Below are positions 19,287 through 61,738 of a stretch of 64,000 nucleotides of DNA, in pieces (within the stretch, counting starts at the first letter, position 1; each line of letters begins with the position of its first letter). This stretch comes from Chytriomyces cf. hyalinus JEL632 (taxonomy: Eukaryota; Chytridiomycota; Chytridiomycetes; Chytridiales; Chytriomycetaceae): NCBI GenBank assembly GCA_025435555.1, contig JAIWWG010000060.1, positions 170,479 through 234,478 on the forward strand, in the 5' to 3' direction. The translations under genes were made by a program, and so were the position numbers. The notes beneath the pieces are model-generated. The model did not search any database, was not told the DNA's origin, and saw nothing but the letters and a program-made list of their open reading frames with translations.

Positions 19287-19446
19287 CTTTCTCGAACAAG
19301 AAGCGACAGTCGACGTGTGGAAGACACAGAGCGCCATAATAAAAACAGCGGGAAATTATAACGAAATGACCGTGCCACCGCTCTCGCTTTCGAAGCTGGC
19401 GGAATTTGTGGGAACTTTTTTTGAATTGAAAAAATAACTTGTAATA

Positions 19447-20435: not shown

Positions 20436-20533
20436 GACGAGGGGATATCCTTTTTTTTTTTTTCCAATATAATAAAAGCAGGTTTATTCGATTGTCTCCA
20501 ATGAAGAACACGATGTTCGAAGCCAGTCGCCGT

Positions 20534-20935
20534 TTACATTTGCACCTGTTTGTGCTTTGGATTATCTTTGCAGATGACTCTGAGTTTGCCCCCTCTCTTT
20601 GCAAAAAAGCAGTGCGGACAACGAAGTTTCAACGCCGATTTCGATTTGAAGCAGCGCACACCGAACGAGGCCGTTGCGACAGCGATGCCGACGGTCTGCG
20701 AGTGCAAAGATGCGTTTGCGAGAAGAGATGATGATCCCGAGGCAGCTGTGTCCATCTTGTTGGCGATAATGTTGGTGTTGGTGCGGATGATGTTTGTGCT
20801 TTTGTTGGCGAGGGATCCCCAGGGTTGGGCAGTGCTGAGTGCGCGCTGAGTGGCGGTGCAGGCTGTGGCAATGGTGGCTGTGGCTTTGGTGGTGTGCATG
20901 CCGCCTGGCATCCGAGGCAGAATCGCGAGGCTCAT
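20534..20935 (-). CDS. Mitochondrial ribosomal protein bL36m
   Basis: An unspliced frame of 133 residues. The C-terminal 40 residues are a bL36 domain: [28 protein letters not shown], with the C-x2-C-x12-C-x4-H zinc ligand spacing complete. The N-terminal 90 residues are Ala/Thr/Ser-rich with few acidic residues, as expected for a long mitochondrial targeting extension. A second Met ten codons in could also start the protein. It is convergent with the Hikeshi gene, the two stops being about 98 bp apart. Confidence 0.85.
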
Positions 20936-21565
20936 TCGTACGATAAATATTTATGGTCTTTTGCTGGTGGAAAAACGAAGTTCAAAGTTAAAGTTAAAGT
21001 CATAAATATATTTTGTGTGATTACCAGACACAATTTACCCGAAACTTTAACTTTCTTCACTATAACAAAGTATCGGAAAGCAGTCTTGCTTCTCGCGTCA
21101 GTTCTGCAAACAAAGAATCCGCCTAGGATTTCCATCTTCTTCCAGCATTTTCTATTGCTATGGCCAGTGGGCAACTTGTTCAACAACACCATGCACCCCA
21201 TCTGGGTCAATGCCCTCTTCCACATTACGTTCATTCCATTTCAACATTTCTGCTGCTTCGCATTTTGCAGTCTGCGGAACCCATACACAAGACGGGGTGT
21301 TTTCATTCAAGGTTGAAAACTGCGCGTTTTCCCCACACACCTCACCTTGCTTGGCTGCGAAAAAATTTGACACGGCACCTGTACTCTTTATATATCAAAT
21401 AACGGCACCCAAGGTTGCCTTCCCACATCCACTGCCATAAAAAAAACAGTATCTCGCCCCCACAGTTGCCGATTTGAAACAAGGTAGTTGACCAAGGACC
21501 GATTTGAAGGCACTCAGACATGCAATAAAACAAATCCCCCCTTCCAACAAAAGGGGAGGTCGGAG
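20936..21565. other. Intergenic, upstream of bL36m and downstream of ORFX copy 1
   Basis: No gene is recognised in this stretch. It holds a short AAAGTTAAAGTTAAAG repeat near 20983-20998 and AT-rich tracts. The small open frames on both strands show no recognisable protein and overlap each other. Confidence 0.4.
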
Positions 21566-22147
21566 TTAATCCCCATTCAAGCAACACCTCCGCTGATGCG
21601 GCGTAAACTCTACGTAGCGCTCCTTTGTCAAAAGATTCCTGTTCTCCCTCAACGACCTCGGCACAACCGCCGCACGGAACCAATCGATCCTCCCGGACTT
21701 TTTCATGCCTTTTAGTACAAGTTCGTCCACCTCATCTTTGGCCCCTGCTTCTTGCAAAGCCAGGACCTCGTTCGCAGAGGCCGTTAAAAAGTCCAATGCA
21801 TCCCGGTACACGTATTTGTGGTACACTTCGAGCGCCTCGGCAACAATGAATTCCAGCAACGATGCGGCTGTTGTTCCCTGGTACCGGACGAACCCGGGGC
21901 TCGTCCGTGTCCCGCCGAATGGTAGCGGGGACCAGGGATAGAACATTTTTCCAGCCAGAGAATACACGAGTCGGTCTGGGTTGATGCAGGTGGAGTGGGA
22001 GAAGGATGTGCGCACAGCGCTTATGCATAGGTTTCGGGTTTCTTGGTCAGAGAGGGACCCGGCTGGTCTCGTGGACAATGAGAGGAGTTTGGTCTCCTCG
22101 CTGAAGTTGATGACTGCCACGGGCGCCGTTTTCGATGTGCGAATCAT
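21566..22147 (-). CDS. Unknown conserved protein, ORFX copy 1 (next to methionine synthase copy 1)
   Basis: An unspliced frame of 193 residues from ATG at 22147. I do not recognise the family. It has a clear paralogue at 41283-41846, and the two are about 70% identical by eye across some 140 residues. Shared blocks include YSLAGKMFYPWSP, PFGGTRT, VLALQE, GAKDE and LKGMKKSG. The N-terminal 40 residues and the C-terminus differ. There is no signal peptide, membrane segment or obvious catalytic motif. In both copies it lies downstream of methionine synthase on the same strand, so the pair was duplicated together. Conservation despite divergence argues that both copies encode real proteins. Confidence 0.7.
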   Translation of the reverse strand: MIRTSKTAPVAVINFSEETKLLSLSTRPAGSLSDQETRNLCISAVRTSFSHSTCINPDRLVYSLAGKMFYPWSPLPFGGTRTSPGFVRYQGTTAASLLEFIVAEALEVYHKYVYRDALDFLTASANEVLALQEAGAKDEVDELVLKGMKKSGRIDWFRAAVVPRSLRENRNLLTKERYVEFTPHQRRCCLNGD

Positions 22148-23017
22148 GGTGAAAGAAGGATGGAGCGGAACAGAATTCCTTTTGTGAAGATAAATATGGA
22201 TAAGACCTTTTTGCGGAGTTAAAGCCACAAGCGGAGGAGACAGCGACGGAGAAGAAGGTTCCCGACAGAATGAGAGCGGGTCTTTAGGCATTCCCGGACA
22301 TTGCGTATCGGTGGCTGGTGCGTGCGCGGAGAAGTCCACGTTTCCACCACAACTGCGAACGAGTCCGCGACGCACGCCACCGGCCCCCGCCGCCTACCAT
22401 CCCACGCTGTGCAGGTCCTACTCCACGGGCTCTGCACCGGTGCCGAAGTAGGGGCCTGCGAGAGGACTGGGGCCTTGAAATCGGTGCTTACCTAAGCGCA
22501 ACAATTGCCGCAAAACAACTGCATCAAATTTGCTCACTTCGAAAGTTCTCACAACAAAACAATTTCACAAGTAAATAAAAACCCAACTTAACCAGCTTTG
22601 GCCCACACCCACACCTGCCCTCGAACGCCTCCCCACTTGCAGTAACTCACGCACTCGTGCTTGGAATCCCTTCAGAGGTACTCCTATGCTTACCCCGCCG
22701 TCCCACGGCGCGCACTGCCTCCTTCCCACCCTCAGGACCGTTGACTTTGGGAAAGAGGCATCAGACAGCTTGATCGCACTTTCAGGTCCACCCTCTCTCA
22801 TTTCAAAACACTGACTGACATTTGCTTTGCGCACTTTCGAAACACGCATCTACCCAGGCGATACTTTGTCAACGCCTCTTCTCTTGCGATTCATCTGCTG
22901 GAATCCATCAGCATATTGCAAATGAAGAACATCATAAACTAATTTCGGTAGCGCTTTATTCGCATCGTTTTCCATGGACAATTTCACTTCAAAAAAAACT
23001 AACAACTCCACCCAATC
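22148..23017. other. Intergenic between methionine synthase copy 1 and ORFX copy 1
   Basis: From 22651 up to the methionine synthase stop, this is the outer part of the identical inverted-repeat arm. Left of 22651 it stays recognisably similar to the other copy for some tens of bases, with substitutions and indels, then diverges. It holds the 3' end of the methionine synthase transcript and the promoter of ORFX copy 1. Confidence 0.5.
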
Positions 23018-25671
23018 TCACGCAGATGCAGCTGCTGCTCGGAACTCCTTCGCTGTCTGAACCATGTTCTTCAGCACCGCCTCAGTCTCTTCCCACCCAC
23101 GCGTTTTAAGACCACAGTCCGGGTTGATCCAAATGCGGTCCCAAGCCAGACACGACTTCATTTGGTCCACACGCGTCTTCATCTCCGCCTGCGGTGCAAC
23201 TCTCTGCGTGTGAATGTCAAACACTCCAGGTCCAAGCTCGTTGGGGTACGCTCGCTCCTGGAATGCTTGCAGCAGCTTCAAATCCGACTTGGCGCTCTCA
23301 ATCGACAACACATCGCAGTCAAGTTGAATTATTGCGTCCATAATGTCTTCAAAGTCACTGTAGCACATGTGGCTGTGGATTTGGGTGCCGTCTTGCACGC
23401 CGCAAGATGCCAGCAGGAACGAGTCAACGGCCCACTTGAGGTACGCGTTCCATTTTCCACGGCGGAGGGGGAGTCCTTCACGGATGGCTGGCTCGTCGAT
23501 TTGGATCACTTTGATTCCGGCAGCTTCAAGGTCCACTACTTCGTCACGGACAGCAAGCGCAATCTGCTTGGCAGTGTATTCACGGGGTTGGTCATCACGG
23601 ACAAATGACCAGCAAAGAATCGTCAGCGGTCCCGTGAGCATTCCCTTCATGGGTCTGCTGGTGAGACTTTGGGCGTACTTGGTCCAAGCAACAGTCATGG
23701 CGCTGGGTCGGCTGACATCTCCGTAAATCACAGGTGGCTTGACACATCGTGAGCCGTAACTCTGCACCCAGCCGTTCTTGGTGAACCCAACTCCGCTCAG
23801 CATCTCGCCAAAATATTCCACCATATCGTTGCGCTCGGCTTCACCGTGCACCAAAACATCAATATCGAGTTTCTCTTGAAACTTGACAACAGTGGCAATT
23901 TCCTCCTTCAAAAGTCGCTCGTACTCGTCTTGCTTGATGCTTCCCTTCTTAAACTGTGCGCGGATGCGGCGGAGAGACGCTGTCTGTGGGAAGGATCCAA
24001 TGGTGGTGGTGGGGTATTTTGGCAGGTTCAGCAGCTTTGTCTGGACAGAGCGACGCGTGAGGTACTCGGACTTTCTTGAAGTCATAGCTGGGGTAACTGC
24101 ACGGAGACGTTCTTGCACGGCTGGGTTGTGGATGCGGGTGGAAGTCAGGCGGGAAGTGACGCTCTTTTTGTTGGCGTCCAGAGCTTCCTTCACGGACTGC
24201 GAGCCAAAGTTGACGGCCTTGGTGACAACGGCCACTTCTGAAAGCTGTATCAATATCGTTAGTAACAAGGTGGCTGAAGTGGCAAATGCTTGAAAACGCG
24301 CACCTTCTCCACCGCAAATGACATCCAGTCAATCATCTCCAAGTCGGCATTGGTAGCAGCCTTCTCGGCATCCAACGAGTGTGGGGAATGCAGCAACGAA
24401 CAAGAACTTGCAACAATCACGCGCTTGGCACCAAGAACCTCCACAGCCTGCTGCACAAGACCCACAGCATGTCCCAAGTCCGCCTTCCAAACATTTCTAC
24501 CATCAACAACACCCAAAGAAACGCTCTTGTCTGTCTTTTGAGCAATGGCCAACACGCGCTCGAAGCTGTCCAACCCACGCACAAGGTCCACATGGACGGC
24601 ATGGACTCCTGGCAGCGCGAAAGCGAGCTCGGCGTTTTGTGATTCGAGCCCTTCAAAGTAGGTTGCAACAAGGACCTTGATGCGTTTGCCGGCAATCTTG
24701 CTGGCGAGGCGGGTGTAGGCTTCAGTGTAGGCAGCTTGTTCTTGTGCACTCAGGTCCATCACCAAGTGGGGTTCATCCAACTGGTGGGATTCGCAATCGA
24801 GGAATGGGAGTTAGTATCACTTGATGCAGTTTTATGACTGCTCAGCTAATGTCATGTTACCTGGATCCACTCTGCTCCGGCAGCGTCAAGCTCCGAGATC
24901 AAGGCAGCATACTGGTCCACAAGCGAGTACAACAGGCTCAACTTGCTGAAACCCGAGGTAGCATCCTTACTGGCACGAGCCAGAAGCAAGAAGCTCATTG
25001 GCCCAACAATATAAGGACGTGTCTGGATGCCGAGTGCTTTGGCTTCGAGGTACTCTTGCACGGGTTTGTTGTTGGCCGCGAGAGAGAAGTTCGTGGTTGG
25101 GGTGAGTGGCACCGGGACGTAGTGGTAGTTTGTGTCAAAGTACTTGGACATTGGAAGCGAGGCGACATCGACTGAGCCGGGACGTTGGAGTCCACGGGCC
25201 ATGGCAAAGTAGAGATCGAGGCCTTGGAGGGAGGAGTAGCGTGGTGGAATGGCGCCAAAAGTGACGGCGGCATCCTAGTTGAGGTTAGTTAGTATGCTGA
25301 GGATGGTTGATGGATGTGGCGACAATACTCACGAGAATATGGTCGTACAGGGAAAAGTCGTTGGATGGGATGTGGTCGATTCCCATGTCCTTCTGGATCT
25401 TCCAGTGCGCAGCACGGAGGCCCTACATGATGAGAAGAGGGGGTGAGAGATGAGGGGTTAGTGTGGGAGTTATTGGCAGTGCATATACAGCAGTGGGGAC
25501 CACAAACCTTGGCACCAGAGATGAGATCAGCCTCAGCAACAGTCCCCTTCCAGAATCCTTCGACAAGATGCTTGAGGTCGCGGTTGGCACCCATGCGGGG
25601 GAATCCGAGAATTGAAGAGGAGGGCATATTCAGGGAGGGTGTTTTCAGTTGGCTGATGGCAAGTTTTTGAG
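22651..25671. repeat. Left arm of a 3,021-bp inverted repeat (methionine synthase copy 1)
   Basis: Reverse complement of 37403-40423; paired positions sum to 63074. I found no mismatch in the stretches I compared, including four introns and about 370 bp of 3' flank. The first differences are at 22650 on the left and 25672 on the right. Beyond both ends the similarity continues but is clearly reduced. Confidence 0.9.
23018..25627 (-). CDS. MET6: Cobalamin-independent methionine synthase, copy 1
   Basis: Five exons on the minus strand (25627-25508, 25422-25333, 25274-24861, 24780-24304, 24244-23018) give 775 residues, close to yeast Met6. The enzyme moves a methyl group from methyltetrahydropteroyl-triglutamate to homocysteine. 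The N-terminal half begins ILGFPRMGANRDLK. The C-terminal catalytic half has TTIGSFPQT, VLVHGEAERNDMVEYFGE, IQIDEPAIREGLPLR, the zinc ligands in HSHMCYSDF and the last Cys in WINPDCGLKTRGWEE. All catalytic parts are present. The coding sequence and introns match copy 2 at 37447-40056. The TATA-containing promoter has diverged from that of copy 2, so the two could be regulated differently while making the same enzyme. Confidence 0.95.
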
Positions 25672-26142
25672 GGACGTTTTTTATTTCAGGGAGGCCTTAT
25701 TTATACGGGAGTCGGACGTTTATTTTGTTTCATGTGTGCGGGGATGTTGGGGGGTTGTTGGAGGTGAGTTTGGGGAGTGTGGGGATGGGGGGCCATTTTT
25801 TGTGTGTTGTGGGGCACCCACAAATTCGGCAAAATTTTTCGTCGAGTCTGCTCACCAAAGTGAGATCGCATTTTCTGTTTCAGGCGTGGATGCTTCTCAA
25901 GTTGGTAGGCCCTTGTAGCTGTCATTCGCAGGATGTTGTGAGTGTTCCTGCCTGACAGGATGCCGTTGTGACCTTGTGCCTGCGAGCGAGCTTTTTTTTG
26001 TATTTATTCCATGAAGATAGAAAAAGGTCAAAAAGAGGGTGGCGGGGGTGTGCAGCACAGGAACTGCAGTTGTTCAACAAACAAACAAACAAAAAAAACA
26101 TGACTAGAAATCAATCCCATTTCTCACACAAGACAAAATAAA
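25628..26142. other. Promoter region of methionine synthase copy 1 and 3' flank of the remodeller gene
   Basis: From 25672 to about 25870 the sequence is homologous to the promoter of copy 2 but carries many substitutions and indels. G-rich runs and the shared block around GGGCACCCACAAA are still recognisable. The remainder, up to the stop of the next gene, shows no gene. Confidence 0.55.
25698..25705 (-). promoter_or_regulatory. TATA box of methionine synthase copy 1
   Basis: TATAAATA on the minus strand, about 70 bp before the start codon. The same octamer sits in a matching place before copy 2, inside an otherwise diverged promoter, which supports its being functional. Confidence 0.65.
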
Positions 26143-29100
26143 TCAAGTCTTTTCCGGCGGCCTCTTCATCAACGGAGGCACTACTAAATATTTCCCGTGA
26201 TACATCATCAGCTTGCTTGGCTTTGCTGACCGGTTCGTCTTGTCCAGTCTTTGTATCAGCGCATTGACTTTAGATGCACCTTCTGTGCACAATACGCACG
26301 TGTATTTTGCTCCTAGCGCGTCCAATTTCTTGTACCGAGCTTCCGAGAGTTCTGGGTCACAGCCTACGTGGATCCATCTGTAGAACGTGACGGTTTTTGG
26401 TTTTTTAGTTAAAACAGTAAAGTTGAGGCACGCGTTCTCTCACCGATCGCAAACATCACAACACGCCATCGCAATATCCTCCAATTCTTCTTTATACACA
26501 TGAAAACATAACGGACAGAATTGATCCGCAAGAAACCGCTTGTGACATGGCGCACAGTACGTGCACGCGTAGATGTCCATTTTGCCCGTGACTGCTGTGT
26601 CTTCGTGAGATGGTGGGACCGATACATGACGCCAATCCATCGTCGTCGCAGAATTGTTGCATGAAATGCAGATTCTGCACCCAGGACAGTGCCAAGATCC
26701 TTGGAAAAAAAAAAAACACGCAAAATGCAAGTTAAAAATCAGGAAACGCCACAGCAAATTATTTCTCACCACTCGGTGCCTTATCCATCTTCGGATTCAG
26801 ACAATACGTATGGTATCCCTTATCGCACGCATCGCACAACACCATCAAAGTTTCATCCTCTCCCGCCTTATTACAAACTTCGCACATTTTGCAATTTCCA
26901 CATTTCCACTTTGCACCCGGCATCAAAACTTTGCTCACCATCACAGGTGTCATGATATCTGCACAAGTCAAATGATGCCCAAGACCACATTCGGCACATC
27001 GCAACAAAACGCTCGGCGGGTTCGGATCAAACTCATCGTCAGGAGGATCAGTTCCATGGCAAATTGCGCATTCCATATCTTGCAAATTGGATGCTTTGGA
27101 CTTTTTACCGCCAGGAGTTGCGTTGGGATTCGTGTTCAATTGTTTAATCACTGACACTTGCTTTGGCACAGGTACCATGCGGGCAGTGGGTGTAGGCGGT
27201 GCAGGAGTTTGCTGAACGACCGGCATTGTCTGCCCATTGAACATCATAGGAGAAGGCGACATTTGGTTCTGAGCCATCATTTGATACTGCATCGGATTCG
27301 GACTTCCTTGCATCATGCCTCCCATCATATTCGGCATCATCATTCCAGAGTTCATTGCCATGTTCATGCCTTGCATATTCATGTTGGCCATCATTGACAT
27401 TCCGGGCATAGTCATACCACTCGCAGCTGCGGCTGCCACCGCCGCCATTTGCTGTTGTTGCTGCTGTTGCTGTTGCTGCTGGCTCGCCATTTCTTGTGTC
27501 TATTTTTCGCTGTAAGTACTTGAATCATAAAATGCAAACAAGGTCGTTTGATGTCTTACTCGGAGTTTTTGGTGGAAAAGACAAATAAGGCCAGCCTCCA
27601 TCACCGGCTTTTGACAGTACGCCCCAGCACGAGTCAAATAACCGCAAGTGAAACGCACGCTGTATTTGCCCGAAGGTCCCTGTTGCAAGCATGCAGAAAT
27701 GAGTGAACCAAAAATGACGAAAATTTTTTTATGGTGAAAATTCGATTTACCATGCTTACAACGGGCGCCTGCTCTCGCAATTCTTTCAACTGCGAATACG
27801 ACAACTTCGGCTTCATTATTTGCCATTGCTCCGCCGTCATACCGTGAGGGATGAAGCCCGGTTGGTTGTAATGCTCCCCTGCCCCACCTGGAGTTCCCGA
27901 TCCACTGCCACTGCTGGACGACGCAGCAGCCCCAGGACCCGAAGGTGCAGGTGTGTTTGATACACGCGCTCCTGGAACCTGAACTGGGGTTTGCCGCTGC
28001 TGAGCCAGTTGGGGAGGACGGTTCACAGCCACGCCAGCGGATTGATTACCAACCGGCATGGCAGCAGGAGTTCCAACTGGTCGCACATGTTGTACATTTC
28101 CTGGTGCTCCAGGAGTATTCGCCGTCATTGGCTGTTGGACTTGCTGCTGGTATGGATTGGGTGCTTCCGCTGCAAGGAGAGGTTTTCCAGTGAAATCAAC
28201 AAAAAAAGATTCATTTGACTTGATTGGAGCCACGCTTTGTTCGAACCGAGTCCGATGCCTGTTTCATGCTTTTAGAGACAGGTTGCGAAACAGTTCGAAA
28301 GTTTTCCTTACACTGAGTATGCCGCCTGGTACTGGCCTGGCATGATGGATATGGGGTAATGCGCCGCGTCCTGAGAACGCTTGATAGCCATCCAATCCTC
28401 CAACTCACTACTTGCAGGCTTACTCTTGATATCCCCAAAACTTACTTCCAGCACCATCCCCTTTTCTTGCCCTCCAAGTTGCTTTTCAATCAACACGTGA
28501 GAAGGCTGTCCCAACTGAGGCACTTGTTCAACATTCGTGTGAATGTCCAGGAAACGTCCACGGCGTCTTTGCGCACGCAGTCGGCTGTTGAATTCGGCCG
28601 CGCTGGCGGCTGCTTTGAGCATCTGAGCTTCCGATCGAGGATTCGATACAACTTGTATGACAGCTGATGACGAGACGTCAGTTGCATTTTCGGAGGATAT
28701 CGGTTCAGTCGAAGATACTGCGGTTTCGCTTTCTTGGGAGTTGTTTCCGTTGCGCGAAGGGATTTGCGAAGCGGCGTAATTGTTCGAAGAGGCCACTTCT
28801 GGCGCCAGAGAAGTTGAACTCGCGGGAATCGTCGATGGCTCAATCATTACAACCACAGACGGAGCAGAAACGACCACACCCGCAGTCAATCCTGCAAGAC
28901 CCAGCCCGTTCAAAAGAGCAGGAGGTGCGCGGTATATAGGTTCATAATAGCTGATTGAGTCGATTGGTCGCTTAATGTTGGAACCACCTTTCTTGTATCT
29001 GCGCAAATAAGAGCACAGTTGAGGTTCGACACTATCTCGAAAAATAGCGGGCGAACCTGTCATCTCCAATCCCGCGATCTTCATCGTCCGATCCTGCCCC

Positions 29101-30114
29101 AGACATGCGATCGTTTTCGTCTTCGGGGTACACCCAGTTTTCCGGCTCGACTTTTCCTGTGCACATGTAGTCATCTCTCACAGGTTTTCCTCTGACCAGC
29201 ATTAAGTAGCCAAAATGCTTGAATACTGTTCGAGTCGACATGATTCCCAGCGGCCGAGACCTTTAAAAGATAATTGCCCAGAAAAGAAGAAGGTAGAGTT
29301 AGGAACCAAAGTCGATCTCGATCAGAATGATGGCAACAAATGCGAAACCTAAAGTTGGACGCAAGAAGATCCATTGCTTCCAGCCGCTGTTTATCCTCGT
29401 CTGTGGCAAACAAACGCCGAATCTGCGGGTTTTTGAGATGCAAAAGATATGAGTCTCTGAAGCCCAGAGCGCGAGCCACATCCAGCGTGAGCATGTACAG
29501 CTTTGTCGGATGCCGCGCCAGTTTAAAGGTGCGGACCTTGAAAACGCGGCCTGAAAAACACAAGAGTCAGCCGAGGTAATCCATGACATCGTCCCGCCAT
29601 GCTTTTACCGCCGAGAAGTTCGCCGTCTGCCGACATTTTCGCCTCTCCTTCTTTATCGACAGGCACAGAATAGTCTTCGTCCGACAAGGCTCCATCGTCA
29701 CCTTCGAGCTCTTCGACTAAGCGCTTAGCTTTTGTGGGTTTTGCCTAAAGTTGGCCCGGCCGTTTAGTATATAGAGACTTGTGATGGGTGGATACATGCG
29801 TTGAGGTTACCTTCCCAGGTTTGCGTCCGCGTCGGCCAGGGGTGTTTTTAACCTGGAGGCCATCAAAGACAGGGTAGTTTGGCGCATATTAACATGATGA
29901 GAGCGATGCGAGTACAAGAAATAAGGTCAGGGGCCCTGTCTCTCTATCGACCCACCTCGACACCCGCTTCCATTTCTGCATCCATCTCGTTGTCCGCGTC
30001 CTGTTTATCCTGCTCGTTATCGTTGTCGACCTCAACTTCTTCGCCGTCGCCGTCGCCGTCAACGTCCGCATCGCCGTCAAAGTCATCGCTGTCAATCGGT
30101 TGCTTGGGCCCCAT
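26143..30114 (-). CDS. SAYP/PHF10-like SWI/SNF-RSC subunit: Rsc7/Swp82 domain plus PHD fingers
   Basis: Eleven exons: 30114-29956, 29852-29811, 29744-29609, 29550-29349, 29260-29057, 28998-28312, 28258-27760, 27679-27560, 27499-26770, 26699-26444 and 26377-26143, giving 1,089 residues. The acidic N-terminus has an AT-hook-like TPGRRGRKPGK. Residues from about 113 form the Rsc7/Swp82 (CRC subunit) domain: KLYMLTLDVARALGFRDSYL, MSTRTVFKHFGYLM and GKPVRDDY. A long Ser/Pro/Gln-rich part follows, then a small Cys-containing block (FTCGYLTRAGAYCQKPV). After a poly-Gln/Met linker come tandem PHD fingers from about residue 826 (CAICHGTD; CEVCNKAGEDETLMVLCDAC; WHCPGCRICISC), then a third Cys-rich finger (CDVCDRWIHVGC). 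The joining intron, 27559-27500, is the main assumption. Otherwise two genes would lie 9 bp apart on one strand. Confidence 0.78.
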
Positions 30115-30247
30115 CTGCTTTTTAAATCCAGGGATGTGGTTTATTTTTTGTGGGTTGCTGTTTTTTTTTATTTATCTTTATTTACTTCCCAGATTTTAGT
30201 GCAACACATCAAAACAAGCGAGTGTTTATCAGGTCAACGCAGGCATT
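30115..30247. promoter_or_regulatory. 133-bp divergent promoter, remodeller subunit/Bzz1-like gene
   Basis: This gap lies between two divergent start codons. It is T-rich on the plus strand (runs at 30140-30185). No defined element is recognised. Confidence 0.5.
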
Positions 30248-33200
30248 ATGGCAAACAAATTCCGGGACTGCACCTTCTCATTTACGCCCGATCTTGTTTT
30301 GGATGCGCATCTGGTACAATCTAAATGGGCTCTCCAGCCATCTTCGTTGCTTACACAAACCACCCGCACATCTCCAGTCCGCATCGCTGGCCTTCTTACA
30401 GGATGTCAAAGACTTTTTCAGGGATCGCGCAGATGCGGAACGCGAACACGCCAAAAGGCTGGACTTGATTGCCAAAAAATACTCGGCAAAATTTGAAAAG
30501 CGATCGTTACTAGGACGATCAGGCGCTTCAGAAGACGCGTTCAAGTGAGCTTAGACTTAGTATCAATCTGTCAATAAGCTAAAAGCAAGCGTGAATTAAC
30601 CTGGCTGGGTACTCATCGTACTCAATGCGATTAGCCCGCAAAATTCTGTGGAGCTTGCCTGGAAGAAAATTGTGGACGCAACTGAGCACCGATCGAAAAC
30701 GCACTTGAACTATGCCGACTCGTTAAGCGCAGAGATTGGCGATAAAATCAAACTGGTTATTTCCAAAAAGGACGAATCGCGAAAAAAGGTGTTCTTATAA
30801 TTGCGTTCGCAAAAACTCTTTCATGCTACTCTTCACAACCTACTCTAACATATCAGCAAAATTTCTGCGTATAGCATATGGCGTTCTCTCAGCGGCTTGC
30901 CACAGAGCGAGAGGCTGGCTACTGCGATAAGGACAAGTGCAAGAAAAAGTACGACGACGCGTGCGAAAACTACGAGGCAGCCAAGGCGCGCCACGAACGA
31001 GCCGCTGACGACAAAGCGCGAGAAAAGTACGCGCTCTTGCTCCACAGCGAGATTCTCGAAATGAACAACAGAAAGAACATGTACATTCTGTCCATTGCCG
31101 CAGCAAACGCCGTCAAGAATGAGTACTTTACCGTTGAAGTACCGAATCTATTACAGGTGCGCTACTTTCAACTTTCTTGTTTCCCGGTCACCTGATTCGC
31201 TATGTCTTTACAACAAAATTCACAGGACCTCCACGCGCTCTCCGAGTCCGTCTTTGACTCCCTCCGCAAAGTATGGGAAAACTACGCTATCCTCGACTCC
31301 AACCACCTGCACGCCCTCCTCACTCACACAACCTCGGTCCTCATCCCAAGCATCACTTCCATCGACCCAAAGCAAGACACGCTCGCTTTCATGCAGTGCA
31401 ATCCTCAAACAAGTCCGTCAGCGTTCTCTCGTCTCACGCCCAAAGACTTTGTCTACATCCCGAGCCCCATGTGGCGCGACGCAAACGGTATGGCCAGTGA
31501 CGCACACAGCCGCTGTTACATGATCAACAAGCTTGTCAAGGTGAAGAGAAAGCTGGAGCAGGTTGAGCGGGATATGATGAAGCATGCGAAGGGCATTGAA
31601 GGGACAGAAAAATTGCATGAGGTCTACGTTAAAAATCCGGAGCAAGGCGATATGGACGACGTGTTTGATGTAAGCAACCGCTAGTTTAATGTTCAAGCTT
31701 CTGTCCATCTATCGTTGTCTAATTTCCGAAGAACAACCCAACAGAAAATCTTGGAAATTCGGCGCGAACACTCGATTCTCTCAATTCTAAAAGCAAAGCT
31801 GCAGGCCAACATTGAAGCAATTATATCTGGAGTAGGAGGTATGAATTGGATTACATCATGAACTTTGCCGTGACTGTTTGCGTTTTGCAACAGATGCCAA
31901 GCCAGACGATGTCTTTCACAACTTTCATAACTGCTCTTACGCAATTCCGACTTCTTGCAACTCGTGCAGGCAAGTCATTTGGGGCGTTGGAAAACCTGGA
32001 CTATCGTGTAAAGGTGAGATATTGTGATGTTCAACCCGGCTGATTCTTATTGGTAACCAAAAATGTGTTCATGAAAAAAAAAAAAAAAAAACCTCTGCAA
32101 CAGAATGGTATGAAAATCCTTCAAATTTGCGGCATGAAGCTATAGCACTCAACTCCCCAAAAAATCTTTACCGTAATCATCCCTGCAAAACCACTTTTCC
32201 CCAGCGGCGTTAATGTCCACGTGAAATGTGAACTCAAAGTGCCACCAACGTGCTCCCAATCCAAATGCATGTACCGATCCAATTCTTTAAAATCGTTCAA
32301 CTCCCCTGCAGCGCATTATCTGCAACAACAAAAACACTTACCTATGGGTGAAAAGTCTCCGACACGTTCAAATGCTGTGGCGCTGGTAGATGGAGAGAGT
32401 GGCGGACACCATTCACTGGGTGATATCCGTACTTCAACGCAGGGAACAGAAGCTCCTCAGACTGTTGGGGGCGATGCGGTTGTATTGTACGACTATGCTC
32501 CACCTATGAATGCAGACGTGGAAGAGCTGGCGGTGATGGAGGGGGAGATTTGTCAAGTGCTGGACGTTGGTGAGTGACAAGCCTCCTACTGCCTGGTTAA
32601 TCTTACTAAAATCATCTTCCATTCTGGTACTGTTGTACGATGCTTTCCAGACGATGGCGGAGGCTGGACAAAGGTTTGAGGAGGCGACTTTTATTTTGCA
32701 GTTTACCCTGGCTGAACATTTGCGAGATCAGGTGCGCTGCGGCGGAAAGACTGGCCTCATTCCCAGCGCTTACATCAAACATCGAGCATCAGTTTCATTA
32801 AATCCAATGGACAGCGCGTGCGAGTTCAAACAGCCGAGCCAGTATGCGCCATGCCGCCAGGAAGATGAAATTGAGACGAAAGAATTTAACGGAGTAGTTG
32901 GCATCAAAACAGTTGAGTTTTTATCCTGTGCATATGTGAATGCTAGGGATGCTTCTCGTTCTGACTTGTTTATTGCAGACGGTCCTATTTGATTTTCTTC
33001 AAAGTGCCGCCGACGAAATCTCAATCAAGGTATTTTCATGTTGCTGGTCAACAAGCGAGATACTTACTTGCTACTACCTACCCACCACTGCTACTGTCAC
33101 GCAGGCAGGCCAGGACGTCTGGGTGTTGGACGAAGGTAAGCTCACAAGGCAAGCATGAACCACTCCGCTCACGCCGCGTTCATCAACACAGACGAAGGCT

Positions 33201-33271
33201 CGGGCTGGATCACCGTGCATGACGGTGCGAGGGAAGGGCTGGTGCCGACAACGTACTTGAAGTGGGTGTGA
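30248..33271 (+). CDS. BZZ1: F-BAR/C1/two-SH3 actin-endocytosis adaptor, Bzz1-like
   Basis: Fourteen exons: 30248-30313, 30378-30544, 30635-30788, 30893-31156, 31226-31669, 31745-31838, 31894-32013, 32104-32107, 32205-32569, 32651-32673, 32732-32911, 32979-33029, 33105-33135 and 33192-33271, giving 680 residues. Bzz1-type proteins bend membrane through the F-BAR and activate WASP/actin at endocytic sites through the SH3s. The F-BAR spans about residues 1-396. A C1 zinc finger follows (HNFHNCSYAIPTSCNSC, GLSCKECGVNVHVKCELKV) with all ligands in place. SH3-1 is about 528-590 (VLYDYAPPM, GLIPSAYIK) and SH3-2 about 628-680 (TVLFDFLQS, GLVPTTYLKWV). Exon 8 is only 4 nt long; see the separate entry. 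Confidence 0.9.
32104..32107 (+). other. 4-nt micro-exon (AATG) in the Bzz1-like gene
   Basis: It is flanked by acceptor CTGCAACAG and donor GTATGA. The preceding exon ends TGT AAA G and the following one starts C GGC GTT. Only insertion of AATG gives Cys-Lys-Glu-Cys-Gly and keeps frame into VHVKC, exactly as the C1 Cys-x2-Cys spacing needs. Direct joining of the two large exons shifts the frame. Confidence 0.75.
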
Positions 33272-33830
33272 AAGGAAAAAAAAAACGAGTCCTTCCCAAC
33301 TTTGCCTTTTTTGTCAACCTGAAATTTCTTCGTGCCACAAAACCGGGCCACATTCTCGAAAGCAACCCACACATCCACATCCACTCGGTAAGCGAATCTG
33401 CATTCCCGATGGCGCTGATGCAGCGAGAGAAGCAGCGAAGGCCGCAGGGATAGAGGGATGGTGGAGAGGGATCCTGGGCAATGTCATGGACGGAGCTGAC
33501 CTTACCATGTTGCCGGCACTGGTTGGGGCTCGATGCGCTCGACATATGAAACAGGCCAAGACACGGCCCCGATGCGCAGTGTTGGCGTGGGCGCGGCCGT
33601 TGCCTGGGCCTCAGCTCTCCAAAGCACAAAAAAAGTGCAAAGTTTTTTCAGTGCGATACTTCGCCACCTGCAAACTCTGCCCTTCTCCAAATACTCACAC
33701 ATCAATCCCTCCTATCTTTAGGTTGCATCCCCACCTATCCTTCTCCGATCACCACACAGTCCCGTTGTCCTTTCCCCACCGCTTTGTCCTGGCGATTTCC
33801 TGTTTGACCGTGACCTTGCCTGCTGCAAAA
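33272..33830. other. 5' region of the C2H2 factor gene
   Basis: This stretch holds the 3' flank of the Bzz1-like gene and the probable promoter and leader of the zinc-finger gene. The frame of the zinc-finger gene stays open back to an ATG at 33486, but the added residues are compositionally unlike a protein and no domain is seen. Confidence 0.4.
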
Positions 33831-34988
33831 ATGCCAGCCACAATGATACCTCTGTCCATTGCAGCACCAAACGACCATCTGAGTGCAATGAAGCGTTCTG
33901 CTTCTGAGGCCTTACATAGCACTGATCCTTCTTCAACCGTTTCGGACTCGTTGTCACCTCTCTCTGCAAAAAATCTCGCATCATCCACAGCTTGCAATTC
34001 GTCTTCTGTCTCCGTGTCGAACGAGTCATGCCCACTCAACATTCTATTTTACGCTACACAACTGGCTGCGCCTGCTCCCAAATTTGAGGCTGATGCTCCA
34101 ACTCCGCCTTTAAATGAGCAAGACCGATCGACTAGCTCCCAGGCATGCCTCTCGGCATATCACTGCGACGTCGATGAAAAATTACACAGTGGGGACTACG
34201 CATGGATGGAGCCAAAGACAAAAAAAGTGATGACTGCCGCAGAAAACTTGCTGGCCCTAATGGATCATACCGATTCCCCCGATGAAGAAACTGCTGAGCA
34301 AGATGGTATTGAACCAATGTCATTGGATGATGAAGTCGTGTTGAGAATCGGTCATGGAAGTGCTGATGAAATCGTACCAGGCACCATCTTGCAACCCTTC
34401 TATGAACAAACCTCATGCTCGGGCACCCCTTCAGACGGTCCTTATTGTATACCCAAAATGTCGAGCCCAATCCGAAACCCATTGCGGCCGCCCACTGGTC
34501 CACTTAAACGAATTGGAAGCACAACGAGTAATAACAGCAGTTCGAGCACTGACACCACCGGACTTTCTGTTGCTGTAAAAGGCAAAGCTTCGCCTACTCC
34601 ATCGTCATCTTCGTCTTCAACTGCACCCCCTTCGTCACCACATACTATGTCTGGACAGGGAGAGGTGCCACCTCAACAACACCCGCTCATGAATGCTGAC
34701 AAGCGGTTCGAATGCAATACTTGTCAGCGAACATTCAGCCGACTCTTTAATCTCAAATCGCATCTTCAAACGCATGATCCCACCCGAACAAAGTCGTACA
34801 TGTGCACAGTCTGTGGAGTTGGATTCTGCCGGCAGCAAGACCTTATGAGGCACGGCACAGTGCATGACAAGAGCAAATTGATGGTTTGCCCTGTGTGCCC
34901 CAACAAAACTTTTAGTAGAAAGGATGCGTTGCGGAGACATATTCGGCTGAATGGCTGTTGCGACGTTAACTTGTTGGAAACCATGTAA
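33831..34988 (+). CDS. C2H2 zinc-finger transcription factor
   Basis: One exon, 385 residues, from the ATG at 33831 in a good context (GCAAAAATG). The first 290 residues are Ser/Thr/Pro-rich and acidic in places, as in activation regions. The C-terminal 90 residues hold two classic fingers (CNTCQRTFSRLFNLKSHLQTH and CTVCGVGFCRQQDLMRHGTVH). A third, CPVCPNKTFSRKDALRRHI, ends in an irregular Cys rather than His. The tandem resembles fungal stress or morphogenesis regulators, but the target genes cannot be inferred. An upstream in-frame ATG at 33486 would add 115 residues. Confidence 0.8.
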   Translation: MPATMIPLSIAAPNDHLSAMKRSASEALHSTDPSSTVSDSLSPLSAKNLASSTACNSSSVSVSNESCPLNILFYATQLAAPAPKFEADAPTPPLNEQDRSTSSQACLSAYHCDVDEKLHSGDYAWMEPKTKKVMTAAENLLALMDHTDSPDEETAEQDGIEPMSLDDEVVLRIGHGSADEIVPGTILQPFYEQTSCSGTPSDGPYCIPKMSSPIRNPLRPPTGPLKRIGSTTSNNSSSSTDTTGLSVAVKGKASPTPSSSSSSTAPPSSPHTMSGQGEVPPQQHPLMNADKRFECNTCQRTFSRLFNLKSHLQTHDPTRTKSYMCTVCGVGFCRQQDLMRHGTVHDKSKLMVCPVCPNKTFSRKDALRRHIRLNGCCDVNLLETM

Positions 34989-35519
34989 TTGTAGGCAAAG
35001 TGACCCTTTCTTTCTTCTCTCAGTTATGAAATCATTTGCCCGATATGGGCATGCTGAACGCTTTCTTTAATTTGGTGCGCCATCATATCTAAAAAAACCC
35101 CGACGCTACCAATCCGTTTTCCTTTTCTTATTTGATGGGGGGCCTTGCCAAACTTCCTTGTTTCTTTTGGTTCATGTATTCCCCTCCTCCGCCGACTTTT
35201 ATTTGTTGGGTTTGCCCATTTGATTTTGTTTATACACTCGTGCCACTGACGTTGGGCAATACTCGTGCGTTTTCTTTCGTCTTGTTTGGTTTTTCCGTTT
35301 GTTTTGTTTTCGTCAGCAGCTTGCTGTGGTTTTCTTTTTTTTTATTTCGGAAATGAAATAGATGGTGTCTTGAATGTTTTTATCCGACTCCTGCGTTAGA
35401 CACGAGAAGCCAGTGTCAACACACTCTGTGTTCGTCAAGCAACACAACATGCGCAATTTAACAAATAAATAAAACCAAGAAACGTTTGTTTTTTCTGGAT
35501 AAGTGAGACGCACAACCCA
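34989..35519. other. Convergent 3' intergenic region
   Basis: A T-rich stretch between two convergent genes. It would hold both 3' untranslated regions. I see no gene or repeat in it. Confidence 0.45.
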
Positions 35520-36972
35520 TCACACGAATGCAAATTGGACCATCAGCGGAACATGATCACTTGGGACCGAGTGAGACGGCATACGCGGCGCAATGTCGTC
35601 AGTTCGGCGCGGCAATTCAAGCACCTGCTTCACGGTCAAGCGGCTTTTGAAATCAGCAGCACTGGGTGGTTGTCCATTTTCAGACGAATGCATGTCGCTA
35701 TGAAAAATAAACTGGCCGACAAGAAAAGAAAGGCAGAAGTTAGTTTAACGAAACGAGCAGAAACCAGATGGCATAAAAAAGGATAACACATTACATCCAC
35801 AAGAGCTTGAGAAGCCGAATGCCAAGTTGAATAGTACCGATCAAGCTCCCCCGCACAATATCCAATCCCGTTATACCCCGAATCCCGGTCAAGCCCCAAT
35901 ACAGCGTCTCTGAAATGAAATCCATGATGCACGAGACCCGTCTCGCATCCAAGCAGTGAGTAAACGGGGTCCATGCCTCGCCCCGTGAAACAAACTGGTT
36001 TAGGCGCAAATTGATCCAAACCCGGTTCGCCAGGTGGAGATAATAATTCTGCTCTCAATCGCCTTCTATGCTCCAAGATTGAGTACGGAGTGTTGGGTTG
36101 TGACGACAACATGCGGATTTGACCGCTAATCAAGTTTTCATTCAGTAGAAAAGGTTCAGTTTCACCGGCTAGCATGTAATGGTACATGGCACTTTCTTCA
36201 GTCATGTTCATGTCGCCACATATGACTGTCGAGTAGAGAGTGTTGTAGCGAGAAGCGAGTTGTTGGCATCGCTGAGTGAGAGAATGAAGCTGGGCCAGTT
36301 TGAGATGGCCACGTTTTGTGTTGAAAAGGAGATGAGTTGTAGCAACGCACACAGAGCGTGAGGAAGAAGAAGGCTGAAGATTAGAAGCGGATGAATTAGT
36401 AGACGAGGTTGAAGAGGGGGCTGAGTTTGATGATGCCGAATTTGACAGCGGGCTTGACGAGTGTTCAATCAAGTCGAGCACGGCGATTATGGCCACATTG
36501 TCCTTCCCAGTGACGGTTTTAAAGTCCAGGTCTTCCGCATGTCTCAAGGCAAACACCTTGTGCTTGTAGAACAAGGCGCTGCCATCAACGGCATCCCCGA
36601 GCCGTTTACAGTAGCGACCCGTATATCCCAGTCTAGCAAGACGTAATTGAAAAACAGTTTCAAATGCGCGTGGTTCCACCTATTTGAGAAGCCCAAGCCT
36701 GCATGTCAAACACATCCCCGAACGGAAAACACAGAAAAACTTCACAGCACCTCTTGAAGACATAGCACATCCGGCGCAAGATACTCAATGTCCCTCAGAA
36801 TGACTTCAGCCCGGTTTTTCCATCGCATTTCAGAGTTGCTCGAGTGCGAATACAGTTGCGGGTGTCTCTGGGCCAGGGTGTCGGATAGCACATTGTATGT
36901 CATGAGAGTGAAGCAGTCGTGGAATCCCTTGCGTCTGTCCTTCAGCTTCCAGCGTCGATGTCTCACATGCAT
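35520..36972 (-). CDS. ANGEL-type endonuclease/exonuclease/phosphatase (CCR4 family)
   Basis: Three exons (36972-36751, 36679-35795, 35711-35520) give 432 residues. The family includes CCR4, nocturnin and ANGEL, which act on RNA 3' ends (deadenylase or 2',3'-cyclic phosphatase activity). Catalytic motifs are seen in order: LMTYNVLSD, VLCLQEVEP, VATTHLLFN followed by the RxxQ-type helix, VICGDMNM, and the final PSDHVPLMVQF. ANGEL-like traits are the FKVAAAQMHVRHRRW-type lead-in and the long insertion before the last exon. The frame is open upstream to an acceptor-like site near 37040 but contains no earlier ATG, so a short 5' exon may be missing. A Ser-rich loop sits before VCVATTH. Confidence 0.82.
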
Positions 36973-37446
36973 TTGTGCTGCGGCGACTTTAAATAAATAA
37001 TTACGGTAAATATATTTGCTTGGACTGATCAAGAGGCACGACTGCAATGAAAAGAAACAAGCTCAGTGGGCATGTCCGATGAATAGCCAAATTACTTGCC
37101 CTGCACTGCATTATTTACCATCTGGACCAAACGCGCTACCACAACTGTGACTGAGGAATCTGACCAAAGTTCGATGGTGCGGCAAACTTCGATGCCTGCA
37201 TTTAGCCCCACCAGCTGTAGCTTGATCCTTACTCACCACGCCCAACTTCGTTCGTCAACAAATTTTTTCCGACTTTGTGGGTGCCCCAAAAAATCCCCCC
37301 ACACACCCCAAACTCACCTCCAACAGCCACAACAGGAAAAAAAAAGTCCGACTCCCCTATAAATAAGGCCTCTCGCGTCTGATCTTTATGAATAAAAAGT
37401 CTCTCAAAAACTTGCCATCAGCCAACTGAAAACACCCTCCCTGAAT
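36973..37446. promoter_or_regulatory. Divergent promoter, ANGEL gene/methionine synthase copy 2, with TATA box
   Basis: TATAAATA lies at 37358-37365, about 82 bp before the methionine synthase start. From 37403 rightward the sequence belongs to the identical repeat arm. Leftward to about 37250 it is homologous to the copy 1 promoter but diverged. Confidence 0.6.
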
Positions 37447-40423
37447 ATGCCCTCCTCTTCAATTCTCGGATTCCCCCGCATGGGTGCCAACCGCGACCTC
37501 AAGCATCTTGTCGAAGGATTCTGGAAGGGGACTGTTGCTGAGGCTGATCTCATCTCTGGTGCCAAGGTTTGTGGTCCCCACTGCTGTATATGCACTGCCA
37601 ATAACTCCCACACTAACCCCTCATCTCTCACCCCCTCTTCTCATCATGTAGGGCCTCCGTGCTGCGCACTGGAAGATCCAGAAGGACATGGGAATCGACC
37701 ACATCCCATCCAACGACTTTTCCCTGTACGACCATATTCTCGTGAGTATTGTCGCCACATCCATCAACCATCCTCAGCATACTAACTAACCTCAACTAGG
37801 ATGCCGCCGTCACTTTTGGCGCCATTCCACCACGCTACTCCTCCCTCCAAGGCCTCGATCTCTACTTTGCCATGGCCCGTGGACTCCAACGTCCCGGCTC
37901 AGTCGATGTCGCCTCGCTTCCAATGTCCAAGTACTTTGACACAAACTACCACTACGTCCCGGTGCCACTCACCCCAACCACGAACTTCTCTCTCGCGGCC
38001 AACAACAAACCCGTGCAAGAGTACCTCGAAGCCAAAGCACTCGGCATCCAGACACGTCCTTATATTGTTGGGCCAATGAGCTTCTTGCTTCTGGCTCGTG
38101 CCAGTAAGGATGCTACCTCGGGTTTCAGCAAGTTGAGCCTGTTGTACTCGCTTGTGGACCAGTATGCTGCCTTGATCTCGGAGCTTGACGCTGCCGGAGC
38201 AGAGTGGATCCAGGTAACATGACATTAGCTGAGCAGTCATAAAACTGCATCAAGTGATACTAACTCCCATTCCTCGATTGCGAATCCCACCAGTTGGATG
38301 AACCCCACTTGGTGATGGACCTGAGTGCACAAGAACAAGCTGCCTACACTGAAGCCTACACCCGCCTCGCCAGCAAGATTGCCGGCAAACGCATCAAGGT
38401 CCTTGTTGCAACCTACTTTGAAGGGCTCGAATCACAAAACGCCGAGCTCGCTTTCGCGCTGCCAGGAGTCCATGCCGTCCATGTGGACCTTGTGCGTGGG
38501 TTGGACAGCTTCGAGCGCGTGTTGGCCATTGCTCAAAAGACAGACAAGAGCGTTTCTTTGGGTGTTGTTGATGGTAGAAATGTTTGGAAGGCGGACTTGG
38601 GACATGCTGTGGGTCTTGTGCAGCAGGCTGTGGAGGTTCTTGGTGCCAAGCGCGTGATTGTTGCAAGTTCTTGTTCGTTGCTGCATTCCCCACACTCGTT
38701 GGATGCCGAGAAGGCTGCTACCAATGCCGACTTGGAGATGATTGACTGGATGTCATTTGCGGTGGAGAAGGTGCGCGTTTTCAAGCATTTGCCACTTCAG
38801 CCACCTTGTTACTAACGATATTGATACAGCTTTCAGAAGTGGCCGTTGTCACCAAGGCCGTCAACTTTGGCTCGCAGTCCGTGAAGGAAGCTCTGGACGC
38901 CAACAAAAAGAGCGTCACTTCCCGCCTGACTTCCACCCGCATCCACAACCCAGCCGTGCAAGAACGTCTCCGTGCAGTTACCCCAGCTATGACTTCAAGA
39001 AAGTCCGAGTACCTCACGCGTCGCTCTGTCCAGACAAAGCTGCTGAACCTGCCAAAATACCCCACCACCACCATTGGATCCTTCCCACAGACAGCGTCTC
39101 TCCGCCGCATCCGCGCACAGTTTAAGAAGGGAAGCATCAAGCAAGACGAGTACGAGCGACTTTTGAAGGAGGAAATTGCCACTGTTGTCAAGTTTCAAGA
39201 GAAACTCGATATTGATGTTTTGGTGCACGGTGAAGCCGAGCGCAACGATATGGTGGAATATTTTGGCGAGATGCTGAGCGGAGTTGGGTTCACCAAGAAC
39301 GGCTGGGTGCAGAGTTACGGCTCACGATGTGTCAAGCCACCTGTGATTTACGGAGATGTCAGCCGACCCAGCGCCATGACTGTTGCTTGGACCAAGTACG
39401 CCCAAAGTCTCACCAGCAGACCCATGAAGGGAATGCTCACGGGACCGCTGACGATTCTTTGCTGGTCATTTGTCCGTGATGACCAACCCCGTGAATACAC
39501 TGCCAAGCAGATTGCGCTTGCTGTCCGTGACGAAGTAGTGGACCTTGAAGCTGCCGGAATCAAAGTGATCCAAATCGACGAGCCAGCCATCCGTGAAGGA
39601 CTCCCCCTCCGCCGTGGAAAATGGAACGCGTACCTCAAGTGGGCCGTTGACTCGTTCCTGCTGGCATCTTGCGGCGTGCAAGACGGCACCCAAATCCACA
39701 GCCACATGTGCTACAGTGACTTTGAAGACATTATGGACGCAATAATTCAACTTGACTGCGATGTGTTGTCGATTGAGAGCGCCAAGTCGGATTTGAAGCT
39801 GCTGCAAGCATTCCAGGAGCGAGCGTACCCCAACGAGCTTGGACCTGGAGTGTTTGACATTCACACGCAGAGAGTTGCACCGCAGGCGGAGATGAAGACG
39901 CGTGTGGACCAAATGAAGTCGTGTCTGGCTTGGGACCGCATTTGGATCAACCCGGACTGTGGTCTTAAAACGCGTGGGTGGGAAGAGACTGAGGCGGTGC
40001 TGAAGAACATGGTTCAGACAGCGAAGGAGTTCCGAGCAGCAGCTGCATCTGCGTGAGATTGGGTGGAGTTGTTAGTTTTTTTTGAAGTGAAATTGTCCAT
40101 GGAAAACGATGCGAATAAAGCGCTACCGAAATTAGTTTATGATGTTCTTCATTTGCAATATGCTGATGGATTCCAGCAGATGAATCGCAAGAGAAGAGGC
40201 GTTGACAAAGTATCGCCTGGGTAGATGCGTGTTTCGAAAGTGCGCAAAGCAAATGTCAGTCAGTGTTTTGAAATGAGAGAGGGTGGACCTGAAAGTGCGA
40301 TCAAGCTGTCTGATGCCTCTTTCCCAAAGTCAACGGTCCTGAGGGTGGGAAGGAGGCAGTGCGCGCCGTGGGACGGCGGGGTAAGCATAGGAGTACCTCT
40401 GAAGGGATTCCAAGCACGAGTGC
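37403..40423. repeat. Right arm of a 3,021-bp inverted repeat (methionine synthase copy 2)
   Basis: Reverse complement of 22651-25671. The arms are separated by about 11.7 kb that holds four complete genes. Recombination between the arms would invert that segment. Confidence 0.9.
37447..40056 (+). CDS. MET6: Cobalamin-independent methionine synthase, copy 2
   Basis: Five exons (37447-37566, 37652-37741, 37800-38213, 38294-38770, 38830-40056) give 775 residues. The product, domains and zinc ligands are as in copy 1, and I see no change in exons or introns. It diverges from the ANGEL gene and is followed 1.2 kb downstream by ORFX copy 2. The gap to ORFX is about 350 bp longer than in copy 1. 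Identical introns beside diverged flanks mean that the core was homogenised recently. Confidence 0.95.
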
Positions 40424-41282
40424 AGCGAGTTACTGCAAGGGGTGAGGCATTCGAGGGTAGGCTTGGGCGCCGGATGAAACTCCTAAGGTCACTCGACTTG
40501 TATTCGCTGATGGGTCAACCAGCTTCTGAAGTCAAGGTGGGGTATATGGGGAGATTTGCATGAAGTTCAAGTTCAAAGCTCTCGCCGTAGGGAGGTAGTA
40601 CTGATTTACAGTTGGTTTGAGGCAGGGGAGCTGGGAAGCGAGACAGGGCTATTGCATACTGAGTTTATAGTTGACATGCGCCTGACTTGCTGAGTCAGAA
40701 TAAAATTGTGCGAGTGTTCTGCGCCAGAGCGACTGTTTCCGAATCATGACATCGTGGGTTCCCGTGTGTGAGTGCCCCACTGGTCGAAAGCCGTTGAAAT
40801 CGATTGGAGCTGAGCAAGTTCAGAGAAGGTTCCGATGCAACAAAGCTGGCTCTGAAATGCAAAGGTTTCAGCGACGCTCAAGGCAGTGGCGGTATCAAGC
40901 GTGGCATGGCCGGCCCAGGTTGGTGCTGGTGCAGTTTGAAGCGAGGCATAATCAGGTTTTGATACTTGGTTGGCAAAAGGCAAATTTTGAAACCAGGTTT
41001 CTTATTGCTTAGGTAATCACCGGTTCTCGTAGTTTCTGTCCCAGGGGCCGCGAGCTTGGTATGTATTTCCCGCAAATCGAGGGACGGTGCGTTGGTCGGC
41101 GCTGAGCGGGTGTGGATGTCAGCGGCGGCGGAGTCGATCCTATCGGCTGGCGCGAACTCGTCGGCAAAAAAAGATGGGCAACAGCCTCACCACATCCAAC
41201 CATCTTGTTCCTCGGACCTCTCTTCATCCTCTTTGCTTCTCAAAGAGTGCTCTCCACTAATTAACGCTGCTTCTGAAGGAGC
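40057..41282. other. Intergenic between methionine synthase copy 2 and ORFX copy 2
   Basis: The first 367 bp belong to the identical arm. The rest shows reduced similarity to the copy 1 region near the boundary, then none obvious. Several short open frames are present on both strands; none resembles a known protein. Confidence 0.45.
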
Positions 41283-41846
41283 ATGAAGCGTTCGTCAGCC
41301 AATATGCCCGCTGTCGTCATAGCGCGAGACGACACGTCCAATACCCTCCTTTTAAGCTCGATGGGTGCAGGATCACTGGAACATTCTGAAGTACAACGAC
41401 TGTGCATCCTCGCGCTGCTGACGTCATTTTCCCAAGCATCCGTCGCAAACCCGGACCGCCTCATCTATTCACTGGCGGGGAAGATGTTTTATCCGTGGTC
41501 ACCAGTACCGTTTGGGGGCACCCGCACAAATCCCGGGTTTGCTCGGTATGAAGGAAGGACACCGGCTGCTTTGTTGAAATTTATCGTTTCTGAATCTCTG
41601 GAGGTCTATCAGAAATATGAGTATCGGGAGGCCCTGCAGTTCCTGATTTCAGCGGCAAACCAGGTTCTAGCTTTACAGGAAAGTGGAGCAAAAGATGAGA
41701 TGGATGAGCTGATGTTGAAAGGGATGAAGAAGTCTGGGAGCATTGAATGGTTCGGTGCGGCAGTGATCCCGAGGGCCTTGCGCGAAGGAAGGAATGCATT
41801 TGCTCAAGCCCGTGGAGTTGTTTTCACGCCGCGGCAGAAGGGATAG
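41283..41846 (+). CDS. Unknown conserved protein, ORFX copy 2
   Basis: One exon, 187 residues from the ATG at 41283. It is the paralogue of 21566-22147. Shared blocks are NPDRL, YSLAGKMFYPWSP, PFGGTRT, VLALQE, GAKDE, LKGMKKSG and the final TP-basic end. Differences are mostly conservative (for example Val/Ile, Asp/Glu), which points to purifying selection. I do not recognise the family. It has no signal peptide or membrane segment. It lies on the same strand as methionine syn-thase copy 2, downstream, as in copy 1. Confidence 0.7.
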   Translation: MKRSSANMPAVVIARDDTSNTLLLSSMGAGSLEHSEVQRLCILALLTSFSQASVANPDRLIYSLAGKMFYPWSPVPFGGTRTNPGFARYEGRTPAALLKFIVSESLEVYQKYEYREALQFLISAANQVLALQESGAKDEMDELMLKGMKKSGSIEWFGAAVIPRALREGRNAFAQARGVVFTPRQKG

Positions 41847-61727: not shown

Positions 61728-61738
61728 CATATAAATTC

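Follow-up and report, generated by a model that had tools for sequence, protein, structure and literature searches.

Identical inverted MetE genes within diverged flanks in Chytriomyces cf. hyalinus: probable gene conversion after an old duplication

The window analysed here is a stretch of 64,000 nucleotides from Chytriomyces cf. hyalinus JEL632 (positions 170479-234478 of its contig) and contains two copies of a methionine synthase gene, MetE, in mirror orientation, each with a copy of a second gene, designated ORFX, beside it. The MetE copies lie in arms that are identical to the last base, while the DNA flanking the arms is homologous and old. From the sequence we consider it very probable that MetE and ORFX were duplicated long ago in inverted orientation, and that at least one recent gene conversion has since written one MetE copy over the other.

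Identical arms and their MetE genes

The two arms are exact reverse complements, with no mismatch in 3021 positions compared base by base, and four predicted introns (282 bp in total) lie inside the match, as the sequence-only reading had reported. The exact match is maximal; extension fails at both ends. An exact match of 3 kb is far beyond chance. When the arm DNA was searched against the whole assembly (37,782,357 bases, 37.8 Mb, in 242 contigs), matches were obtained at these two places only. The edges of identity are sharp: the longest exact run is 3021, and 58 of 74 and 66 of 93 aligned bases are identical in the adjoining 100-column windows, which still contain 13 and 8 arm bases, respectively. 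The layout is that of inverted, linked paralogues, with both arms in mirror orientation on the same contig. Table 1 summarizes the features of the locus.

Table 1 Features of the MetE-ORFX locus, in window coordinates.
Feature	Coordinates	Strand	Remarks
ORFX copy 1	21566..22375	-	269 codons from GTG; ATG aligning with the start of copy 2 at 22147
Diverged 3' homology outside arm, copy 1	22608..22648	-	41 bp, 85%
Left identical arm, MetE copy 1	22651..25671	-	with introns, 44 bp 5' of ATG and 367 bp 3' of stop
MetE copy 1 (predicted)	23018..25627	-	exons 25508-25627, 25333-25422, 24861-25274, 24304-24780, 23018-24244; mirror of copy 2, from arm identity
Diverged promoter homology, copy 1	25691..25838	-	15-base box 25810-25824; TATAAATAAGG with 5' end at 25705
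Spacer	25672..37402	.	11,731 bp; ORFs with PHD finger, TOCA-family HR1 domain and C2H2 zinc fingers
Diverged promoter homology, copy 2	37260..37372	+	same 15-base box 37274-37288; TATAAATAAGG at 37358
Right identical arm, MetE copy 2	37403..40423	+	exact match to left arm; DNA search of assembly
MetE copy 2 (predicted)	37447..40056	+	exons 37447-37566, 37652-37741, 37800-38213, 38294-38770, 38830-40056; 775 aa
Diverged 3' homology outside arm, copy 2	40427..40467	+	41 bp, 85%
ORFX copy 2	41283..41846	+	187 aa

The gene model in each arm has five predicted exons and 775 codons, and its four GT-AG introns contain CTAAC. Both MetE domains are present: Meth_synt_1 (PF08267) was matched on exon pieces and Meth_synt_2 (PF01717) at 1.1e-147. 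Among solved structures, cobalamin-independent methionine synthases come closest to the last exon. Each arm is predicted to carry a full-length gene for this enzyme, with its N-terminal and catalytic domains. When the long catalytic ORF and PF01717 were used as queries, two MetE genes were located in the assembly, both in the window, and no third was found in the 37.8 Mb. In the same genome, a domain of the B12-dependent methionine synthase (PF02965) was matched on contig C79, and the radial-spoke protein family PF04712 was matched on three contigs. Combined with the small size of the introns, these matches suggest a flagellated fungus of an early-diverging lineage. A survey of early-branching fungi and their cobalamin use lists 45 analysed genomes in which MetE and MetH occur together (PMC8085122), and on that evidence the presence of MetE with a B12-dependent synthase in one genome is ordinary.

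No difference between the arms occurs at 401 fourfold sites, in the predicted introns (282 bp) or in the 367 bp that follow the stop codon. These 1,050 presumably near-neutral sites place the 95% upper bound on divergence at approximately 0.3% (3/n rule).

Diverged flanks and the ORFX pair

The promoters had been described as homologous yet clearly diverged, and alignment of the flanks beyond the arms agreed with this, with homology found on both sides. On the upstream side, identity reaches 104 of 148 alignment columns (70%), which span 148 bp of the left copy and 113 bp of the right one (E 8e-17; 74.3 bits compared with at most 27.4 in 40 shuffles). Downstream, 41 bp align at 85% identity (E 1.4e-8; 48.2 bits compared with at most 29.2 in 40 shuffles); beyond them homology is nearly gone up to ORFX, where it returns at 70.6% over 333 bp. 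The motif TATAAATAAGG is located outside the arm at a distance of 45 bp on the right and 34 bp on the left. The 15-mer TTTGTGGGTGCCCCA (25810-25824 on the minus strand and 37274-37288 on the plus strand) is common to both otherwise diverged MetE promoters, has an exact match nowhere else in the assembly, and is a candidate control element. A tie between this box and sulfur-gene control was considered and set aside.

No further inverted homology was detected between the outer flanks (5001-21500 against 41901-60000) by blastn and tblastx at E <= 0.01, and the same searches found none between the spacer halves (25901-31500 against 31501-37100), so that the promoters were the only inner inverted homology found in the spacer. 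One spacer ORF matches Exo_endo_phos below the family cut-off. Two other repeats were observed in the window, namely a direct repeat at 43390-44285 (period 345 bp, 97% identical over 551 bp) and an inverted repeat at 58230-58561 / 61733-62059 (approximately 330 bp, 93% identity, 3.2 kb apart).

The sequence-only reading put the ORFX copies at about 70% identity in protein. The value is 62% (116 of 187 residues). Its broader description of them as homologous and clearly diverged genes holds: dN is 0.30, and dS is saturated and not computable, with 19 of the 59 shared fourfold sites identical and 40 differing. The comparison of synonymous divergence is therefore one of saturation in ORFX against no difference at the fourfold and intron sites of MetE next door. 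In a tree of 23 ORFX-like rows, taken from the 34 tblastn matches in the genome, the window copies are sisters with support 99/97, although the left copy is a long branch and a long-branch warning applies near this group. Several of the 34 family members lie close together on one contig. No Pfam family scored above the cut-off in the 11 members scanned (the two window copies and nine paralogues), and no ORFX relatives were found in viral contigs. The AlphaFold model of ORFX has a mean pLDDT of 58.3, which was too poor for a fold search, and this was set aside.

Near-identical copies elsewhere in the genome

On contig C211, three ORFX copies (5300-8090, 8700-11330 and 12241-14990) are sharply divided into tracts that are either identical or strongly diverged, a mosaic that is a clear footprint of recombination or conversion. 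Between about 5.5 and 6.1 kb, copies 1 and 2 agree at every aligned column, and the identity of copy 3 to copy 1 there is 54-96%. From about 7.1 kb onward, copies 1 and 3 agree at nearly all aligned columns, and copy 2 has 43-91% identity to copy 1. Among 538 informative sites, 200 favour the pairing of copies 1 and 2, 316 that of 1 and 3, and 22 that of 2 and 3. The longest run of like informative sites is 152, a length reached in none of 2000 shuffles (largest shuffled run, 24). The mosaic proves recombination between the copies, not specifically nonreciprocal conversion.

Four units near 166.4, 192.0, 211.6 and 226.0 kb of contig C188, two in each orientation, are histone H3 units, one translated copy having been recognised as H3. 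Identity between them is 99.3-99.7% over about 1 kb for five of the six pairings, and the remaining pair reaches 99.0% over 1540 bp. In 378 coding bases, 0-4 silent differences occur. Within 4 kb around each unit, no similarity was found past the blocks (blastn, E <= 1e-10). H3 genes are under strong protein constraint, which weakens C188 as a sign of conversion. Taken together, the C211 mosaic and the near-identical H3 units suggest similar homogenisation elsewhere in the genome. A pair on C184 about 80 kb apart has a core of 93-99% identity and adjoining DNA of 61-86%; the core is partly coding and may owe something to constraint.

An inverted repeat on C156 (249949-252273 / 262477-264801) has two mismatches in 2325 bp, with its arms 10.2 kb apart, and carries an open ORFX-like frame of 313 codons. 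Its outer flanks are not homologous, and for this reason it may be a plain recent inverted duplication; such duplications may thus also arise in this genome. Spacer stretches matching at 67-81% had raised the idea of an older duplication around this pair, which was rejected: the stretches lie in or beside pieces resembling a LINE-type retrotransposon and were accordingly not counted as co-duplicated flanks. The ORF at C156:254587-256263 is presumably reverse-transcriptase-like, from reading its translation. Dispersed segments of about 6 kb that are 98.5-99.4% alike were also observed at C134:380001-390152, C205:775-9518 and C199:736735-742873; each carries an ORFX paralogue and kinase-like pieces, and the first two share an extra block of 2.3 kb.

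Local inverted pairs of equal score were sought by eye in gene-family searches of the assembly. None was seen among the matches listed for kinases (168 matches; 120 of 668 candidates scored), HSP70 (28 matches) or MFS transporters (11 matches; 9 of 163 candidates scored, too few to count), and the pattern is therefore not general. Among 33 histone matches the H3 group on C188 stood out, and four copies of it were compared at the DNA level; other histone copies of equal score lie, for example, on C166 and C199. A broader proposal is that, in this zoosporic fungus, frequent conversion of gene-sized tracts holds several genes (MetE, histone H3 units and ORFX clusters) near-identical in local copies that are often inverted. 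With the edge at MetE close to the presumed transcription start, promoters would then be free to diverge while the transcribed units stay the same. That this is a genome-wide habit and not a single locus seems doubtful to us.

Origin of the pair and comparable systems

The sequence-only reading had argued that a single recent duplication does not fit the locus, and the flank alignment, the synonymous saturation of ORFX and the sister relationship of its copies all speak against such an event: no single event can yield both the absence of differences at 1,050 near-neutral sites of MetE and saturation next door. Since the ORFX copies are sisters and the old flanks are homologous, the most likely origin is an old duplication that took in ORFX and MetE as a single block. 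The block, consisting of MetE, its promoter and the neighbouring ORFX, would have been duplicated in inverted orientation, as suggested by the mirror-image gene order and orientation, the sister ORFX genes and the residual promoter homology. The two blocks would then have diverged to silent-site saturation, which is observed for ORFX, after which nonreciprocal DNA transfer from arm to arm, i.e., ectopic (intrachromosomal) gene conversion, would have restored identity in the MetE unit alone. One or several such events would have covered 3.0 kb or more. Conversion would halt where the flanks are too diverged for pairing, a step suggested by the sharp drops in identity from 100% to 70-85%; the position of one edge near the TATA box may mean no more than this limit of pairing homology. 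The four predicted introns are all identical, which shows that any such transfer used genomic DNA, rather than a spliced mRNA, as its template.

Gene conversion thus stands, as was proposed earlier, as the economical reading of an identical core in old flanks, in a genome where a recombination mosaic is seen on C211. The identity of the arms alone cannot separate "ongoing" conversion from one recent event. Dosage selection for two MetE genes is not needed to explain the identity, and inversion of the 11.7 kb spacer through the arms is only a possibility. A crossover between inverted arms on one chromatid inverts the spacer rather than deleting it, and for this reason the mirror orientation would help the pair to persist.

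The alternative that survives best, though very unlikely, is an assembly artefact in which a single consensus was assigned to two MetE copies that really differ, or one copy was entered at two places. Judged from the assembly alone, a collapsed repeat would likewise give exact identity over 3 kb. However, the DNA on each side of the arms, flanks and spacer alike, differs, and the letter N is absent from the window and from the other assembly stretches examined (L001-L040). The same assembly also keeps apart copies with 2 differences in 2325 bp (C156), with 3-5 mismatches in about 1 kb (C188) and with differences of 0.6-1.5% over about 6 kb (C134, C205 and C199). If the assembly is correct, DNA-templated copying of one arm onto the other is what remains.

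Recent copying of MetE alone to a site without an earlier MetE, beside a pre-existing ORFX paralogue, has precedents in the size and clustering of the ORFX family and in the near-identical C156 pair, with its non-homologous outer flanks. We regard it as very unlikely, in that a fresh insertion would carry either no homology or identical homology, whereas the promoter just outside the arm is homologous at only 70% and the 41 bp past the 3' end at 85%; the two blocks also share the order and orientation of MetE and ORFX. The conserved nature of the MetE enzyme would favour purifying selection alone as the keeper of identity since the old duplication, but the identical silent, intron and 3' sites are beyond the reach of protein selection and the silent sites of the adjacent ORFX are saturated, so that this explanation is refuted unless the arms are an artefact. 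Conversion from a spliced cDNA could be read from the position at which the identity block begins, 34-45 bp past the TATA boxes and close to where transcription plausibly starts, but is excluded because all predicted introns are present and identical, and the block also runs about 310 bp beyond the only AATAAA/ATTAAA signal in 40041-40700 (at 40114).

Conversion of inverted arms has counterparts in several animals. A review describes Amy and Hsp70 of Drosophila as linked gene pairs in mirror orientation that ectopic conversion has homogenised, the flanks of Amy evolving independently, and argues that the palindromic layout may limit changes in copy number (PMC3924832). MetE is likewise a mirror-image linked pair, Amy being a metabolic gene and Hsp70 a stress gene. 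In that review, however, the concerted evolution of Amy-p/Amy-d is described as coding-only, whereas the MetE arms also share introns and 3' DNA; the Drosophila evidence comes from species and population comparison, and that for MetE from one genome. Caenorhabditis F44E5.4/F44E5.5 and hsp-16 are reported to form near-perfect long inverted repeats that are closer within than between species, and gene conversion is named there as one mechanism (PMC1803023). The MetE paralogues also form a long inverted repeat, but the Caenorhabditis spacers are short (126 and 414 bp) compared with 11.7 kb containing several genes, and the likeness of the worm pairs is maintained across species, whereas the MetE pair is known from one genome alone.

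Human Y palindromes are larger than the MetE arms. Their inverted arms are likewise kept alike through conversion, at more than 99.9%; they lie on a sex chromosome where GC bias and rate were measured, whereas MetE is known from sequence alone. In palindrome P6, conversion tracts are reported to have a mean of 2068 bp and a maximum above 9 kb, with inversions rare (PMC3723533), and on these figures a 3 kb tract at MetE is ordinary and needs nothing special. By analogy, the MetE locus would work like the Amy/Hsp70, Caenorhabditis and human Y cases, whose features assessable in one genome it shows.

Inverted pairs homogenised by conversion are already known in flies, worms and human sex chromosomes, and the MetE pair is a further case. 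Among the titles and abstract openings of the part of the literature covered, no comparable nuclear fungal case was found. As a natural test of gene conversion in an apparently early-diverging fungus the locus is clean: its core is 100% identical, the flanks on either side are old, and promoter elements have left conserved footprints amid promoter drift. It is also a warning that the identity of one gene is unsafe for dating duplications.
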